Assembly: GCA_937891045.1 (NCBI GenBank) | Contig: CALBEV010000187.1 | Location: forward strand, 81,519 to 145,518 | DNA length: 64,000 nucleotides | Origin: an uncultured Burkholderiales bacterium | GTDB taxonomy: Bacteria; Pseudomonadota; Gammaproteobacteria; Burkholderiales; Burkholderiaceae | Reading direction: 5' to 3' | Part shown: in pieces, positions 1 to 14,519 of the stretch | How positions within the stretch are numbered: the stretch's first letter is position 1 | Layout of the letters: every line of letters begins with the position of its first letter | The notes under the pieces: model-generated | What the model was told of the DNA's origin: nothing | The model's input: only the letters and a program-made list of their open reading frames with translations | Databases searched by the model: none | Program-made: the position numbers and the translations under genes

Positions 1-1
1 C

Positions 2-322
2 GAGGAAATCGTGGCCAGCATCAAAAAAGGCCTGTACGCCACCAACTTTGGTGGTGGTCAAGTGGACATCACCTCGGGCAAGTTTGTGTTCTCGGCCAGT
101 CAAGCCTATTGGGTTGAAAACGGCAAGATCCAATACCCCGTCAAAGGCGGTACCTTGGTCGGCAATGGTCCGGATGCCTTGACACGCGTGAGCATGATTG
201 GCAATGACATGGCGCTGGACCCGGGTGTGGGCACCTGCGGCAAAGAAGGCCAAAGCGTGCCGGTGGGTGTGGGTCAACCCACGCTGCGCATCGATGGTCT
301 GACCGTGGGCGGTACCGCTTAA
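2..322 (+). CDS. tldD: Metalloprotease TldD, C-terminal part
   Basis: The window opens inside this gene; the last 106 codons are present and the first complete codon begins at position 2. The segment carries the highly conserved TldD tail: [16 protein letters not shown], then VGNDL-like [24 protein letters not shown] and the terminal LTVGGTA. TldD pairs with TldE (PmbA) to form a zinc metalloprotease that unfolds and degrades peptides, for example in antitoxin and microcin processing. The partner is not in view. The stop is followed directly by the promoter and leader region of the DAHP synthase gene. The identification rests on family motifs; the metal-binding part lies outside the window. 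Confidence 0.93.
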
Positions 323-328
323 AGACCA

Positions 329-360
329 TTGAAATTCACCAAAACAGCCTGTGGTACAGT
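329..360 (+). promoter_or_regulatory. Candidate promoter of the aroG leader transcript
   Basis: TTGAAA (329-334) and a TG-n-TACAGT extended -10 (352-360) lie just after the tldD stop. The spacer of about 20 bases is long, so the extended -10 would carry most of the weight. Transcription would start near 367, almost at the ATG of the leader peptide at 368, which has no Shine-Dalgarno sequence. The assignment is by eye only; transcription from further upstream in tldD is equally possible. Confidence 0.35.
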
Positions 361-367
361 CATCCTC

Positions 368-436
368 ATGATTTCAGTTAAATTTCACTTTGCCTATTTC
401 TGGTTCTCACGCCCCACCGGCGGTCGAGAGGTCTGA
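368..436 (+). CDS. Aromatic-rich leader peptide of the DAHP synthase gene
   Basis: This is a 22-codon ORF starting with ATG and ending in TGA. Residues 5-14 read KFHFAYFWFS, so four Phe, one Tyr and one Trp fall within eight codons. This is the pattern of attenuation leader peptides, and all three end products of the aromatic pathway are represented. The next gene is DAHP synthase, the first enzyme of that pathway. The stop codon lies in a hairpin, and a Rho-independent terminator follows at 466-493. No Shine-Dalgarno sequence precedes the ATG, so translation may be leaderless. Leader-peptide attenuation is established for pheA, trp and his operons; its use here is inference from sequence. 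Confidence 0.75.
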   Translation: MISVKFHFAYFWFSRPTGGREV

Positions 437-493
437 CCGCAAACAACGCGCTGAACTCCAAAACCAACCGCCGAAGCCCGGCGGTTTTTTTTT
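418..493 (+). promoter_or_regulatory. Transcription attenuator with alternative pairings
   Basis: Three mutually exclusive hairpins can be drawn. GCGGTC (420-425) pairs with GACCGC (435-440), around the leader stop codon. CGGCGGT (418-424) can instead pair with ACCGCCG (467-473), forming an antiterminator. ACCGCCG (467-473) can also pair with CGGCGGT (479-485), forming the terminator stem. The heptamer at 418-424 is identical to the distal terminator arm, exactly what an antiterminator needs. A ribosome stalled on the aromatic codons (383-406) leaves 418-424 free. One that reaches the stop covers it, so the terminator forms. Confidence 0.7.
466..493 (+). terminator. Rho-independent terminator in the aroG leader
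   Basis: An 8-bp stem (AACCGCCG, 466-473, with CGGCGGTT, 479-486) encloses a five-base loop and is followed by an unbroken T run through 493. It lies between the leader peptide and the aroG start, so it would act as a conditional terminator rather than as the end of tldD alone. Confidence 0.8.
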
Positions 494-538
494 GCCACTT
501 TCACTTTGTGCCTCGTTAAACGCCTTCAAGGAACTGCC

Positions 539-1654
539 ATGAAAACCCCCAAGCATGATGCTTATGCGCCGACCAACGATCAGACCAGCCAAACCGACAA
601 CCAACGCATCAAGGACATCACCGTGCTGCCGCCCCCAGAACACCTGATTCGCTTTTTCCCGATTGCTGGGACTGCGGTTGAAACCCTGATCGCCAAAACC
701 CGTCAGCGCATCCACAAAATCATGGCGGGCAAAGACGACCGCTTGCTGGTGGTCATCGGTCCGTGCTCCATCCATGACCCGGCCGCCGCACTCGACTATG
801 CCCGTCGATTGAAAGCCGAGCGTGAGAAGTACGCCGACACCTTGGAAATCGTGATGCGTGTTTATTTTGAAAAGCCCCGCACCACGGTGGGCTGGAAGGG
901 CTTGATCAACGACCCCTACTTGGACGAAAGTTTCCGCATCGACGAAGGCCTGCGCATTGCCCGTCAGTTGCTGATTGAAATCAACCGCCAAGGCGTGCCT
1001 GCAGGCAGCGAATTTTTGGATGTGATTTCCCCGCAATACATCGGTGACCTGATCAGCTGGGGCGCCATTGGCGCACGCACGACGGAGAGCCAGGTGCACC
1101 GTGAATTGGCTTCTGGTTTGTCAGCGCCGATTGGCTTCAAAAATGGGACGGACGGCAACATCAAAATCGCTACCGACGCCATCCAAGCTGCGGCCCGTGG
1201 GCATCATTTTTTGTCAGTGCACAAAAATGGCCAAGTGGCGATTGTGCAAACCAAGGGCAACCCGGATTGCCACGTCATCTTGCGCGGCGGCAAAGCACCC
1301 AACTATGACGCTGACAGCGTTGCAACTGCTTGCCAAGAGTTGGAAGCCGCCAAACTGCCCGCCAGCTTGATGGTTGATTGCAGCCATGCCAACAGCAGCA
1401 AACAACACGAGCGCCAATTGGTGGTGGCCAAAGACATAGCGACGCAAATCGCCAGTGGATCAAACCGTGTGTTTGGCGTGATGGTGGAAAGCCACTTGAA
1501 GCCTGGCGCCCAAAAATTCACACCTGGCAAAGACAAGGTAGAAGCTTTGGAATATGGTCAAAGCATCACAGATGCATGCTTGTCTTGGGATGACTCTTTG
1601 CAAGCTTTGGAGGCTTTGTCGCAAGGCGTCAGAACACGCCGCAACATCAAGTAA
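539..1654 (+). CDS. aroG: Class I 3-deoxy-7-phosphoheptulonate (DAHP) synthase
   Basis: The 371-residue enzyme condenses phosphoenolpyruvate and erythrose 4-phosphate, the first step of the shikimate pathway to Phe, Tyr and Trp. Visible family motifs are GPCSIHD (residues 74-80), the EKPRTTVGWKG segment (111-121), GFKNGTDGN in the middle and VDCSHANSSK near the C-terminus. Length matches the E. coli AroF/G/H type. The ATG at 539 was chosen because AAGGA (528-532) sits seven bases upstream and homologues start near here; an upstream in-frame TTG has no such signal. Which end product inhibits this isoenzyme cannot be read from sequence alone. Expression is probably set by the leader peptide and attenuator just upstream. 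Confidence 0.95.
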   Translation: MKTPKHDAYAPTNDQTSQTDNQRIKDITVLPPPEHLIRFFPIAGTAVETLIAKTRQRIHKIMAGKDDRLLVVIGPCSIHDPAAALDYARRLKAEREKYADTLEIVMRVYFEKPRTTVGWKGLINDPYLDESFRIDEGLRIARQLLIEINRQGVPAGSEFLDVISPQYIGDLISWGAIGARTTESQVHRELASGLSAPIGFKNGTDGNIKIATDAIQAAARGHHFLSVHKNGQVAIVQTKGNPDCHVILRGGKAPNYDADSVATACQELEAAKLPASLMVDCSHANSSKQHERQLVVAKDIATQIASGSNRVFGVMVESHLKPGAQKFTPGKDKVEALEYGQSITDACLSWDDSLQALEALSQGVRTRRNIK

Positions 1655-1665
1655 TCTGCTCAGGT

Positions 1666-3072
1666 TTAGAGGGTTTGCAACAGTTTGGCGTGAACCCCGC
1701 CAAAACCGCCGTTGCTCATGCACAGCACATGGTCGCCTGGCTGGGCGGCAGCCTTGACTTGTGCCACCAGTGCGTCGATGTTGTCAGCGGTATGTGCCCG
1801 CGCACCCATGCTGGCCAAAGCCTCAGCGGCATCCCAGTCCAAACCAGCGGTGTGGCAAAACGCCAAGTCGGCTTGCTCCAAACTCCAAGGCAGTTGCGCT
1901 TTCATGGCGCCCAGTTTCATGGTGTTGCTGCGGGGTTCGAACACTGCCAAGATGCGGGCTTGACCCACTTGGCGGCGCAAACCATCCACGGTGGTGCGGA
2001 TGGCGGTCGGGTGGTGGGCGAAGTCGTCATACACCGTGATGGCCTGCGTGCCGGTGCCGATGGTGCCGCGCACTTCCATTCGGCGACGCACATTTTCAAA
2101 CGTAGACAAGGCCTGGCAGGCCTGCGCCACGCCCACACCCACATGTTGCGCAGCGATGATGGCGGCCAAGGCATTCATTTGGTTGTGCACCCCACCCAAA
2201 CGCCATTGCACCCGCCCTTTCACTGCGCCTTGGCGCAACACCTCAAAGTCAGAAGGCTCGCCGCGCACCTGCCAATCGGCTTGGGCTGTTTCACCAAAAC
2301 CTGCCACTTCGCTCCATTGGCCCATGGCTAAAACCCGTTGCAAGCTGTCTTGGTCCGCGTTCACCACCAAGCGCCCGCCAGACGGCACGGTGCGCACCAG
2401 GTGGTGAAACTGTCGTTCAATGGCGGCCAGGTCTGGGAAGATGTCGGCGTGGTCGAATTCCAGGTTGTTCAAAATGGCCGTGCGTGGTCGGTAATGCACA
2501 AACTTGCTGCGCTTGTCAAAGAATGCCGTGTCGTACTCATCGGCTTCAATCACAAACAGTGGGCGACTTTGCCCCTTGGCCAAGCCGCCCAAGCGGGCGG
2601 ACACGCCAAAGTTCAGGGGTACACCGCCAATCAAAAACCCCGGTGTCAAACCGGCTTGTTCCAAGACCCAACTGAGCATGGCGGTGGTGGTGGTTTTGCC
2701 GTGGGTACCCGCCACAGCCAGCACGTGCCGCGCTTGGCCAGGGGCATGCAGCACATGATCGCTCAGCCATTGCGGGCCACTGGTGTAGGGCAGACCGGTT
2801 TCTAGGATGGCTTCCATCAAGGGGTAGCGGGGGGTGCCATCGGGCAAACGCGCACGGGACACCACGTTGCCCACCACAAACATATCGGGTTTCAAGCCCA
2901 GTTGGCCGGCGCTGTAGCCCTCGATCAACTCGATGCCCAAGGCCCGTAATTGGTCGCTCATGGGCGGGTAAACGCCGGTATCGCAACCGGTGACCCGGTG
3001 ACCGGCTTCGCGGGCGAGGGCGGCCAAGCCGCCCATGAAGGTGCCGCAGACACCTAATATATGAATGTGCAT
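1666..3072 (-). CDS. mpl: UDP-N-acetylmuramate:L-Ala-gamma-D-Glu-mDAP ligase
   Basis: The 468-residue Mur-ligase family member reattaches recycled murein tripeptide to UDP-MurNAc in the cytoplasm. It starts MHIHILGVCGTFMGG, has the ATP-binding loop GTHGKTTTT (residues 122-130), the EADEYD motif, HxxNxxNxLAA-like HNQMNALAA and a C-terminal FEPRSNTMK and CMSNGGFGG. Length is that of Mpl (about 455-470). The ATG at 3072 fits the family N-terminus; an in-frame extension upstream would translate a tandem repeat and is rejected. It converges on aroG with only 11 bases between stops. AmpD, another murein-recycling enzyme, lies about 11 kb away. Confidence 0.93.
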   Translation of the reverse strand: MHIHILGVCGTFMGGLAALAREAGHRVTGCDTGVYPPMSDQLRALGIELIEGYSAGQLGLKPDMFVVGNVVSRARLPDGTPRYPLMEAILETGLPYTSGPQWLSDHVLHAPGQARHVLAVAGTHGKTTTTAMLSWVLEQAGLTPGFLIGGVPLNFGVSARLGGLAKGQSRPLFVIEADEYDTAFFDKRSKFVHYRPRTAILNNLEFDHADIFPDLAAIERQFHHLVRTVPSGGRLVVNADQDSLQRVLAMGQWSEVAGFGETAQADWQVRGEPSDFEVLRQGAVKGRVQWRLGGVHNQMNALAAIIAAQHVGVGVAQACQALSTFENVRRRMEVRGTIGTGTQAITVYDDFAHHPTAIRTTVDGLRRQVGQARILAVFEPRSNTMKLGAMKAQLPWSLEQADLAFCHTAGLDWDAAEALASMGARAHTADNIDALVAQVKAAAQPGDHVLCMSNGGFGGVHAKLLQTL

Positions 3073-3090
3073 GGGATGGGATTGTAGAAG

Positions 3091-3160
3091 CGGCACATAG
3101 CCTGGCCGAGACGGCACATAGCCTGGTCGAGGCGGCACATAGCCTGGCCGAGACGGCACA
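3091..3160. repeat. 21-bp tandem repeat in the mpl divergent gap
   Basis: Three head-to-tail 21-bp units start at 3091, 3112 and 3133, with a 7-bp partial fourth unit at 3154. Each begins CGGCACATAGCCTGG. Units 1 and 3 are identical and unit 2 differs at two positions. The array fills almost the whole gap between the mpl start and the start of the divergent gene. The unit length is a multiple of three, so copy-number changes would not shift any reading frame running through it. Confidence 0.9.
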
Positions 3161-3760
3161 ATGGCGGCCATGTCTCAGGAAGTCAAAGCAGCCATTGCCG
3201 CCACCGCCGCTCGCTTGGTGGTGGAAGAAGGCCTGGAATACGGACCCGCCAAACGCAGAGCCTTGCGTGAATTGGCTTTGCCCAGCCGCAGCCCACTGCC
3301 CGGCAACGACATGTTGGAAGACGAGGTGTTTGATTACCTGAAGCTGTTTTGCGCAGACACCCAGCCGCAAGAGTTGCGGGCGCTTCGGGAGCTGGCGCTG
3401 ACTTGGATGGAGCGCTTGCAAGTTTTTCGCCCGCACCTGAGTGGTGCGGTGTGGCGTGGCAGCGCCACCCGACTGTCCGATATTTACATCCAATTGTTTT
3501 GTGACGATGCCAAGTCGGCCGAGTTGATGTTGATCGACCAAGGCATGCGCTACGATGTCCAAGCCATCAAGGGTTTCAAAGGTGAAGAGGTGGACGCTTT
3601 GAGCATCCACAGCCTTTGCACGGCACTGAATGAAGACATTGGTGTGCATTTGATAGTCTATGACTATGACGACTTGCGCGGGGCCTTGCAACCTGATGAG
3701 CGTGGGCTTGCGGTTCGTGGGGATTTGGCCAGCTTGCGCCAGTTGTTGGACAATGCCTGA
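3161..3760 (+). CDS. Conserved protein of unknown function next to mpl
   Basis: I do not recognise a characterised family for this 199-residue soluble, acidic protein. A central segment, GSATRLSDIYIQLF (about residues 103-116), faintly resembles the G-S...D-h-D-h core of nucleotidyltransferase-fold proteins. The second acidic position is Tyr, however, so catalysis of that kind would be doubtful. The start is uncertain: ATG at 3161 (end of the tandem repeat) or ATG at 3170; neither has a clear ribosome site. Its TGA overlaps the ATG of the TlpA-like gene by one base, so the two are probably translated together. It is divergent from mpl. A name copied from the neighbouring ligase would be unsupported. 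Confidence 0.8.
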   Translation: MAAMSQEVKAAIAATAARLVVEEGLEYGPAKRRALRELALPSRSPLPGNDMLEDEVFDYLKLFCADTQPQELRALRELALTWMERLQVFRPHLSGAVWRGSATRLSDIYIQLFCDDAKSAELMLIDQGMRYDVQAIKGFKGEEVDALSIHSLCTALNEDIGVHLIVYDYDDLRGALQPDERGLAVRGDLASLRQLLDNA

Positions 3761-8772: not shown

Positions 8773-9276
8773 TCAGGGCTTGCTGGCTGTTGGAAACGGC
8801 CAAGCAGCTTGAGGATTCAATGTGGTTTGCGCCACATGGTGAACTGCCGGAGCAGCCGCCTTGTGGGGTTTGGCTGCTGGTTTTTTAGCGGCTACTGGCT
8901 TTTTTTTTACAGCTGGTTTTTTGGCCGCAGCTTTTTTAGCTGCCGGCTTTTTAGCTGCAACCTTTTTCTTGGCTGCAGGCTTTTTAGCTGCTGCTTTTTT
9001 GGCGGCGGGCTTCTTAGCTGCAACCTTTTTCTTGGCTACGGGCTTTTTAGCTGCTGCTTTTTTAGCGGCGGGCTTCTTGGCTGCAACCTTTTTCTTGGCT
9101 ACAGGCTTTTTAGCTGCTGCTTTTTTAGCGGCGGGCTTCTTAGCTGCAACCTTTTTCTTGGCTACGGGCTTTTTAGCTGCTGCTTTTTTAGCGACAGGTT
9201 TCTTAGCAGCAGCTTTTTTTGCTGCTGGTTTTTTTGCTGCTGGTTTTTTTGCAGCGGATTTTTTTGCAGTTGCCAT
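8773..9276 (-). CDS. Histone H1-like Lys/Ala/Pro-rich DNA-binding protein
   Basis: The 167-residue protein is built almost entirely of [13 protein letters not shown] repeats up to about residue 138, followed by a short non-repetitive tail ending FPTASKP. Such proteins resemble the C-terminal tail of eukaryotic histone H1 and the AlgP/BpH1 proteins of proteobacteria, and bind DNA nonspecifically. The ORF starts ATGGCAACTGC after a good AGGAG (9282-9286 on the plus strand, read as the reverse complement). It encodes a 21-residue unit repeated four times, matching four 63-bp DNA repeats. Copy number probably differs between strains. Opposite-strand ORFs over this gene are composition artefacts. 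Confidence 0.9.
8940..9191. repeat. 63-bp tandem repeats inside the histone-like gene
   Basis: Four 63-bp units, recognised by GCAACCTTTTTCTTGGCT recurring at 8957, 9020, 9083 and 9146, encode the 21-residue unit of the histone-like protein. The units differ by a few synonymous or Ala/Val changes. Their regularity favours slippage or unequal recombination in frame. Confidence 0.85.
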
Positions 9277-13851: not shown

Positions 13852-13942
13852 TTGGCAATTTTTTTACAAAATCGGCTTCAAAGGCAAACAGTTGGTGAAG
13901 ACTGTCTGATTTGATGAGATTTGACGCGCCTATTTCGGATGC

Positions 13943-13951
13943 TGTGGATAA
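13943..13951 (-). promoter_or_regulatory. Consensus DnaA box between ampD and nrdA
   Basis: The minus strand reads TTATCCACA, a perfect match to the strict DnaA-binding consensus. It lies immediately after the ampD stop and roughly 110 bases upstream of the nrdA -35. In E. coli DnaA regulates nrdAB; a single box by chance cannot be excluded. Confidence 0.5.
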
Positions 13952-13952
13952 C

Positions 13953-14519
13953 TCATTCGGGAAAATCAGGATGATCCCAACCCAGTCCATGTTGCAAAAA
14001 ACCCCACGAAAAACCCGGCCCCGGGTCTTTTTTACGATCAGGTGCGATGTGCTCATGGCCAACTGTGTGTTTCAGTGGGTAATGCATGGCCAAAACAGGC
14101 AGCAACGAAATCAAACTTTCGTACTGTTCTGGCGTGAAAGTATCGCCATCCAATCCCTCAAGCTCTATACCGATTGAAAAGTCATTGCAATTAGATCGTC
14201 CGGCGTGCTGAGATTCGCCTGCATGCCATGCACGTTGATCGCAACTCACGAATTGAATCAATTCACCACCGCGGCGAATGAAAAAATGCGCAGACACTTG
14301 AACGCCGCGCAAGTGATTGAAATAAGGGTGCCGATCAAAAGCCAATTGATTGGTGAAAAAATCTTGCACATCATGGCCGCCGTAGACACCTGGCGGCAGG
14401 CTGATGGCATGAATTACCACCAAATCAATGGTTGTATCGACTGGGCGCGGGCCAAAGTTGGGTGATTCCAAACGGTGTGCGAAACGGTACCAACCCTGAT
14501 GCCAGAACGGGGTCTTCAA
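13953..14519 (-). CDS. ampD: 1,6-anhydro-N-acetylmuramyl-L-alanine amidase
   Basis: The 188-residue cytoplasmic zinc amidase removes peptide from anhydro-muropeptides during murein recycling, which also keeps AmpR-type beta-lactamase signalling low. The N-terminal SPNFGPRP, the VVIHAISLPPG zinc-ligand segment and the C-terminal VGHEHIAPDRKKDPGPGF with the other ligands (His and Asp) are typical of AmpD. The start is a TTG that overlaps the TGA of the preceding small gene and has AGGGA upstream; no suitable ATG exists near the family N-terminus. Mpl in this window acts later in the same pathway. Confidence 0.93.
   Translation of the reverse strand: MKTPFWHQGWYRFAHRLESPNFGPRPVDTTIDLVVIHAISLPPGVYGGHDVQDFFTNQLAFDRHPYFNHLRGVQVSAHFFIRRGGELIQFVSCDQRAWHAGESQHAGRSNCNDFSIGIELEGLDGDTFTPEQYESLISLLPVLAMHYPLKHTVGHEHIAPDRKKDPGPGFSWGFLQHGLGWDHPDFPE

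Follow-up and report, generated by a model that had tools for sequence, protein, structure and literature searches.

We found that aroG in the window (the whole stretch of DNA analysed here, 64,000 nucleotides) is very probably preceded by a ribosome-mediated transcription attenuator, which couples expression of the gene to the charging of aromatic tRNAs. The window opens inside tldD, whose stop lies at 322 (the TldD profile matches over 2–319, and the upstream fragment scores 169.4 bits against NF008006 (TldD), a partial match since the window begins within the gene). The element lies on the plus strand and includes a leader ORF of 22 sense codons, MISVKFHFAYFWFSRPTGGREV (368–436; ATG at 368, TGA at 434–436), with the aromatic run F-H-F-A-Y-F-W-F read at 383–406, a terminator hairpin, AACCGCCG-AAGCC-CGGCGGUU (466–486; 8 pairs, 6 of them GC, in the terminator scan), and its run of nine T (485–493). 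The motif CGGCGGT occurs as an exact repeat, at 418–424 and again at 479–485. A distance of 45 nt, including the ribosome binding site AAGGAA (528–533, read from the sequence, with SD-like matches in relatives), separates the T-run from aroG (539–1654, plus strand), which encodes a class I 3-deoxy-7-phosphoheptulonate (DAHP) synthase (TIGR00034: 538.6 bits, cut-off 173.2). The ORF, the aromatic run, the repeat and the terminator ahead of a DAHP synthase had all been named in the original prediction and are correct to the base, and the profile match confirms the class I enzyme as the product of the downstream gene. The features that characterize an attenuator are found here together: a run of end-product codons in a short ORF, an intrinsic terminator between this ORF and the gene, an antiterminator that excludes the terminator and shares a segment with it, and control codons that, in silico, are placed so as to free segment 2 of the antiterminator.

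Anatomy, pairings, association with the gene and position of the aromatic codons are conserved. Relatives were chosen by AroG similarity alone, as the best 80 of at least 591 candidates with one genome per species; one of them (L004) has no upstream sequence and was left out, and the 79 relatives with the window gave 80 sequences. A short upstream ORF was scored as aromatic when it had at least five Phe, Trp or Tyr within nine residues. Among these best 80 of at least 591, an aromatic-run ORF and a terminator precede aroG in 61 of the 79 relatives, as they do in the window. The ORF is thus present in 62 of the 80 sequences, compared with 27 of 1600 dinucleotide shuffles, and accompanies the terminator in 62 of the 63 terminator-bearing sequences. 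The window leader by itself is only modestly stabler than its shuffles (z -1.71, with 8 of 200 shuffles equalling or exceeding its stability), and we judge the comparative test to be far stronger support than the fold stability of a single leader.

Among the carriers of the element are Variovorax, Polaromonas, Hydrogenophaga, Acidovorax, Comamonas, Burkholderia, Caballeronia, Paraburkholderia, Massilia and Rugamonas, as well as Xanthomonas and Dyella; its range is therefore wider than the Comamonadaceae and takes in other families of the order Burkholderiales. Of the 18 other relatives, one (L023) has a diluted leader alongside the terminator, and in 17 both parts are missing. The latter comprise three Polynucleobacter loci and the similar L065, two Cupriavidus loci (L031, L032), two loci on contigs labelled Planctomycetota/Gemmataceae, loci from Thauera, Rhodocyclus, Azoarcus, Enterovibrio, Chitinimonas and Thiomicrorhabdus, and those of an Ectothiorhodospiraceae bacterium, Thioalkalivibrio and Colwellia. 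The original prediction had staked itself on the aromatic run recurring in relatives, its absence there having been named beforehand as refuting; the run recurs in the 61 of 79, but conservation in close relatives is not complete, as some of them (Polynucleobacter) lack the element. In Polynucleobacter and similar loci (L026–L028, L065, L171) tldD almost abuts aroG, with no leader or terminator between them, which by its appearance in the sequence looks like a natural deletion of the attenuator; a tldD match lies upstream in L026–L028 and L065 even though the element is absent.

The association with aroG also emerges from searches that start from the RNA. We built a covariance model (R1; 118 positions, nine terminator pairs) from 54 of the 61 aligned sequences, seven near-duplicates having been dropped. 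It gave exactly one strong full-length match in 11 of 12 chosen genomes and none in the Polynucleobacter genome. Across 300 genomes of the order, at least 76 were matched at E up to 1e-5, each at one place, a lower bound since scoring was limited to 12 candidates per genome. Each of the 76 loci encodes a class I DAHP synthase with 59–88% identity to the AroG of the window; the aromatic ORF was recognized in 72, the CCGCC/GGCGG terminator in 74 and the GGCGG of segment 2 in 67. All 76 matches stop close to the predicted start of aroG, from 22 nt inside it to 100 nt short of it, and lie on the same strand as aroG in all 46 loci compared. Searches of the class and of the Xanthomonadales order matched 9 of 369 and 9 of 41 genomes, respectively, and yielded eight further strong loci that precede aroG (L157–L160 and L163–L166, with L163 being the place of the training locus L070). 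Six weak loci (L161, L162, L167–L170) were rejected, as no aroG is found there; by eye, L161, L162 and L167 are plain terminators. L168–L170, from Xanthomonadales-order genomes, show by eye Leu/Val/Ile-rich leader ORFs with terminators, and the L168 leader seems, on inspection, to precede ilvD. Within the window, a weak full-length match at 13927–14033 (E 0.15) has no leader-like run and was taken as chance.

Among 41 genomes of the first order, 23 encode an AroG of at least 60% identity, and the element stands beside it in nine. Reading the sequence ahead of aroG in the other 14 revealed no leader with terminator, which indicates that the absence is real and lineage-dependent. An aromatic ORF started by TTG occurs without a terminator in L175, and a terminator of this kind without a leader in L176. 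The chromosome 2 copy of aroG in Cupriavidus necator UYPR2.512 (L032) is without the element, and one strong R1 match was found on a longer contig of that genome; perhaps only one of its aroG copies is attenuated.

The antiterminator and the terminator compete for segment 3 (456–473, plus strand; CUC 456–458 and ACCGCCG 467–473), which can pair either with segment 2 (418–431, plus strand; CGGCGGU 418–424 and GAGAGG 426–431) or with segment 4 of the terminator; segments 2 and 3 were delimited by folds, alignment and permutation. The GGCGG core of segment 2 was found in 61 of the 63 terminator-bearing sequences, the exceptions being L023 and L069. The original prediction that both pairings are kept in relatives is borne out by the alignment (A1, 60 distinct rows), where 94.0% of the antiterminator-core cells and 97.2% of the terminator cells are standard pairs; slid controls peak at 64.4% and 63.0%, respectively, and the observed pairing percentage and covariation score were reached by none of 500 shuffles for either helix. 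Both sides have changed in 21 antiterminator and 28 terminator cells. Counted as double-change pairs, the antiterminator value (2) was reached by 354 of 500 shuffles and that of the terminator by 13 of 500, and five core pairs of each helix are invariant. RNAalifold run on A1 returned the terminator only, the expected outcome for two competing pairings.

When segment 4 was omitted from the fold, all 61 loci had the antiterminator core in their minimum-energy structure, extended by pairing of the sequence that follows the core (GAGAGG in many) with that preceding segment 3. For further tests we used 91 non-redundant loci drawn from 128 with all cores, which were thus selected for having the three cores. 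The antiterminator is stabler than the terminator in 83 of the 91. At all four contacts, own partners pair better than permuted ones (1:2, z -3.6; distal 2:3, z -5.5; core extensions, z 6.8 for 2:3 and 8.0 for 3:4), and none of 1000 or 2000 permutations reached the observed value, in a permutation that ignores kinship. The flanking bases of segments 2, 3 and 4 tend to change together (CC/GG/CC in 21 loci, CT/AG/CT in 13, many mixed), and one Oxalobacteraceae locus has the combination GA/TC/GA. On the AroG tree of the 91 loci, the flank base changed at least 7 times in segment 3, 7 times in segment 4 and 27 times in segment 2. Segment 4 follows segment 3 in four of five independent pairs and never opposes it (p 0.125, five pairs being underpowered), and segment 2 follows segment 3 in one to four of the five (median p 0.25). 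The covariation at the flank column is hence read as consistent with the two helices, but it is not independently significant. Behind the core of segment 2, further downstream than the GAGAGG of the window, L103, L121, L126 and L134 have GTAGAG, with CUACC in segment 1, and L144 has GGAGAG; by eye these are apparently shifted or compensated distal helices.

Upstream of segment 2 lies a candidate segment 1 (404–413, plus strand; UUCUC 404–408 and CGCC 410–413), whose potential to pair with segment 2 is suggested by folding of the sub-region alone and by permutation. In a short fold around segment 2, 60 of 61 loci show three or more pairs that link the last part of the aromatic run to segment 2 outside its core, but the 1:2 hairpin is only weakly better than in shuffles (mean z -0.83). 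As the main protector of segment 2 in the window this hairpin was rejected, as longer folds prefer a local hairpin of segment 2 with 434–439.

The aromatic codons keep to a characteristic position relative to segment 2. In the 91 leaders, codons that start 33 to 12 nt ahead of the GGCGG core are the most often aromatic, and from 6 nt onwards aromatic residues are all but missing. In 59 of 61 loci the core follows the last aromatic codon at a distance of 8–17 nt, with L006 (3 nt, a later Phe) and L056 (-2) falling outside. The core itself is read in different frames: of the 61 loci, 27 have it in frame 0 (Gly-Gly), 33 in frame 2 (with readings such as Leu-Ala, Ala-Ala or Lys-Ala-Val) and a single one in frame 1 (L056, for which the start may have been assigned wrongly); in a second set of 67 loci the corresponding numbers are 11, 51 and 5. 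Hence it is the RNA that is constrained and not the peptide, the end of the peptide being an image of the RNA.

We simulated a stalled ribosome as covering the 14 nt beyond its A-site, and folded the RNA left free downstream as far as segment 3. In the window the antiterminator core appeared only with the A-site at Tyr395, Phe398, Trp401 or Phe404, so that the predicted control codons are Tyr-Phe-Trp-Phe at 395–406 (plus strand). At the earlier A-sites printed (368, 383, 389 and 392) segment 2 is held by the local hairpin with 434–439 and by outer pairs; from 395 on, the outer pairs are lost and the antiterminator wins. An aromatic permissive codon is present in all 91 loci, which had been selected for the three cores. 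With the 14-nt footprint, aromatic residues account for 0.54 of the permissive codons, 0.18 of those upstream and 0.05 of those downstream; the corresponding shares are 0.53, 0.22 and 0.01 for a footprint of 11 nt and 0.50, 0.15 and 0.12 for 17 nt. With the ribosome placed at the stop codon, none of the 91 loci can form 2:3, a result largely by construction since the RNA behind the ribosome is omitted, and in ribosome-free RNA 2:3 is formed in 35 of 91. When the complete window leader including segment 4 is folded, the terminator forms at every stall position, and therefore relief would have to be kinetic; kinetic switching is accepted for the trp attenuator.

Inspection of the region upstream of the leader suggests that its translation is leaderless. 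An extended -10 element, TG-G-TACAGT, is predicted at 352–360 (plus strand) from the sequence and from the recurrence of the motif in relatives: TGnTAnnnT ends 6–9 nt before the leader start in 46 of 91 loci, compared with 7 matches at all other distances below 60 nt, and the best -10 hexamer ends 6–8 nt before the start in 34 of 61 loci. A different spacing, with a -10-like element about 25–40 nt upstream, is seen in several Burkholderia-type and Oxalobacteraceae leaders, and in some of the 61 loci scanned we found no such element. A consensus scan that requires a -35 element passed no promoter within 250–700 of the window. We predict that transcription starts at about 366–368, that is at the leader ATG. 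SD-like matches of at least four bases precede 2 of 91 leaders, as opposed to 47 of 61 aroG genes, and three-base matches precede 33 of 91 leaders.

Based on these features we propose the following mechanism. Transcription would begin at the leader ATG or immediately ahead of it, and the ribosome would initiate at the end of the mRNA without a Shine-Dalgarno sequence. With charged tRNAs for Phe, Tyr and, where it is coded, Trp, it would proceed to cover segment 2 and no antiterminator would form, leaving 3:4 to fold and RNA polymerase to stop near 493. If one aromatic tRNA were short, the ribosome would stall at 395–406, and the stall would break the sequestration of segment 2, be it by the 1:2 hairpin or, in the window, by the local hairpin and the outer pairs; segment 2 thus freed would pair with segment 3, and the polymerase would read through into aroG. 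From the start site and the leaderless initiation to termination, its relief on starvation and the response to each amino acid, we infer these steps from the conserved parts.

In its most far-reaching form this would be a multivalent, pan-aromatic attenuator, translated from the very 5' end of its mRNA, that reads the charging of tRNA-Phe, tRNA-Tyr and tRNA-Trp in about four codons and gates the committed enzyme of the shikimate pathway whenever any one aromatic amino acid runs short. It would act in this way in many Burkholderiales, which belong to the classes reported to lack the TyrR and TrpR repressors, and in some Xanthomonadales; we give this form an even chance of being right. All three aromatic amino acids, noted originally in the leader of the window, are coded in 59 of the 91 non-redundant leaders, with Phe and Tyr in 29 and Phe alone in three, so Trp, missing from 32 of 91, is frequent and not fixed. 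The same attenuator could then be in practice a sensor of Phe and Tyr, or of Phe only, with the Trp codons incidental, which we regard as possible, if somewhat doubtful. Such a restriction would suit the 32 leaders without Trp and the joint presence of Phe and Tyr in 88 of 91, and it has a precedent in the Corynebacterium aroR leader (F-Y-F), which according to a review responds to Phe and not to Tyr (PMC11802643); with a 17-nt footprint, moreover, Phe, Trp and Tyr all fall at permissive codons in just 40 of 91 loci. It accords less well with Trp being kept in 59 leaders, with all three being permissive in 55 of 91 loci at 14 nt and 53 of 91 at 11 nt, and with Trp401 being one of the four permissive codons of the window.

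We consider it very improbable that the locus chiefly serves to make the attenuated short RNA or the peptide for action in trans, a role proposed for rnTrpL and peTrpL of Sinorhizobium meliloti. The terminated leader would indeed be a short RNA that starts with its ORF, as reported for S. meliloti trpL (PMC7298713), but the peptide behind the aromatic run is not kept, the RNA core is read in different frames, and all 76 model matches in the order sit in cis before aroG. It is scarcely credible that the hairpin does no more than terminate tldD at its 3' end, with the short ORF open by chance and the aroG promoter located after 493: the tldD stop at 322 and the good terminator would fit, as would a tldD within 1200 nt upstream in 40 of 60 element-bearing relatives, but the other 20 (a few on short contigs) have no tldD match there, the aromatic ORF accompanies the terminator in 62 of 63 sequences, the T-run leaves just the 45 nt with the binding site before aroG, and in five loci that lack the element (L026–L028, L052, L065) tldD is nevertheless found upstream, so that tldD has no need of it.

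As a ribosome-mediated attenuator, the aroG element resembles the trpL, pheL and ilvL attenuators of E. coli, in which antiterminator and terminator share a segment and the leader ORF is sensitive to stalling, and among which ilvL-type leaders read several amino acids; it differs from the E. coli trp, phe and ilv attenuators in its target gene. Two systems, likened here by their descriptions, precede a DAHP synthase. The aroR-aroF locus of Corynebacterium glutamicum has a Phe-Tyr-Phe leader and stall-driven read-through (PMC11802643, PMC4046766), but it belongs to Actinobacteria, is described as responding to Phe and not Tyr, and its motif as given is without Trp (PMC11802643). The uORFC-13-1 motif of Acholeplasma aroF is a predicted uORF with Phe codons followed by a terminator, but it is reported from just Acholeplasma and environmental sequence, with 24 representatives, and has a ribosome binding site (PMC8632094). 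The trpL RNA of S. meliloti has its 5' end at the leader ATG, so that the ORF is leaderless, which is reported there and predicted here, whereas its codons are for Trp and its target is trpE(G) (PMC7298713). An attenuator before a class I-alpha DAHP synthase operon, aroA(I-alpha, Y)-tyrA of Vibrio, is listed in Table 7 of PMC1173090 as taken from a database prediction, in an entry whose description includes no leader peptide; the same source gives a database-predicted attenuator before the serC/aroQ-pheA/tyrA gene cluster of Bordetella parapertussis.

For the aroG leader of Betaproteobacteria or Xanthomonadales we found no description in the open-access literature, and one in a subscription journal is possible. 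Rfam 15 at the gathering score gave no match in the whole window nor in the 15 of 80 loci scanned; a U4 match in 1–3000 of the window, seen at E up to 1, scores 17.3 bits against a gathering score of 46 and was dismissed as chance. Pfam and NCBIfam scans of five representative leader peptides, very short as queries, gave no match at E up to 10. The mechanism is thus classical, and the widespread example before aroG appears to be undescribed; the points that set it apart from known attenuators are its pan-aromatic codon content and, probably, the leaderless start. TrpR and TyrR are reported to be conserved in many gammaproteobacterial groups and absent in other classes (PMC5343134). This raises the question of how entry to the shikimate pathway is controlled in Betaproteobacteria, to which the element offers a concrete, testable answer. 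Annotation could mark the aroG leader rather than skip it, and the leader would matter for engineering of aromatic production in Burkholderiales. Leaders with and without Trp form a natural series, from which it may be learned how one attenuator weighs three amino acids.

Elsewhere in the window we noted two repeats. A 21-bp tandem repeat (3091–3160; 3.3 copies, 91% matches) lies at the junction where a minus-strand ORF (1666–3171), whose N-terminus carries an RPGYVP repeat, meets a plus-strand ORF from 3161; the repeat-coded N-terminus suggests that the true start of the minus-strand ORF is further in. A long imperfect array of a 63-bp unit (8902–9264; 5.4 copies, 88% matches), of the TTTTTTAGCTGC type, could encode Ala/Lys repeats on the minus strand.
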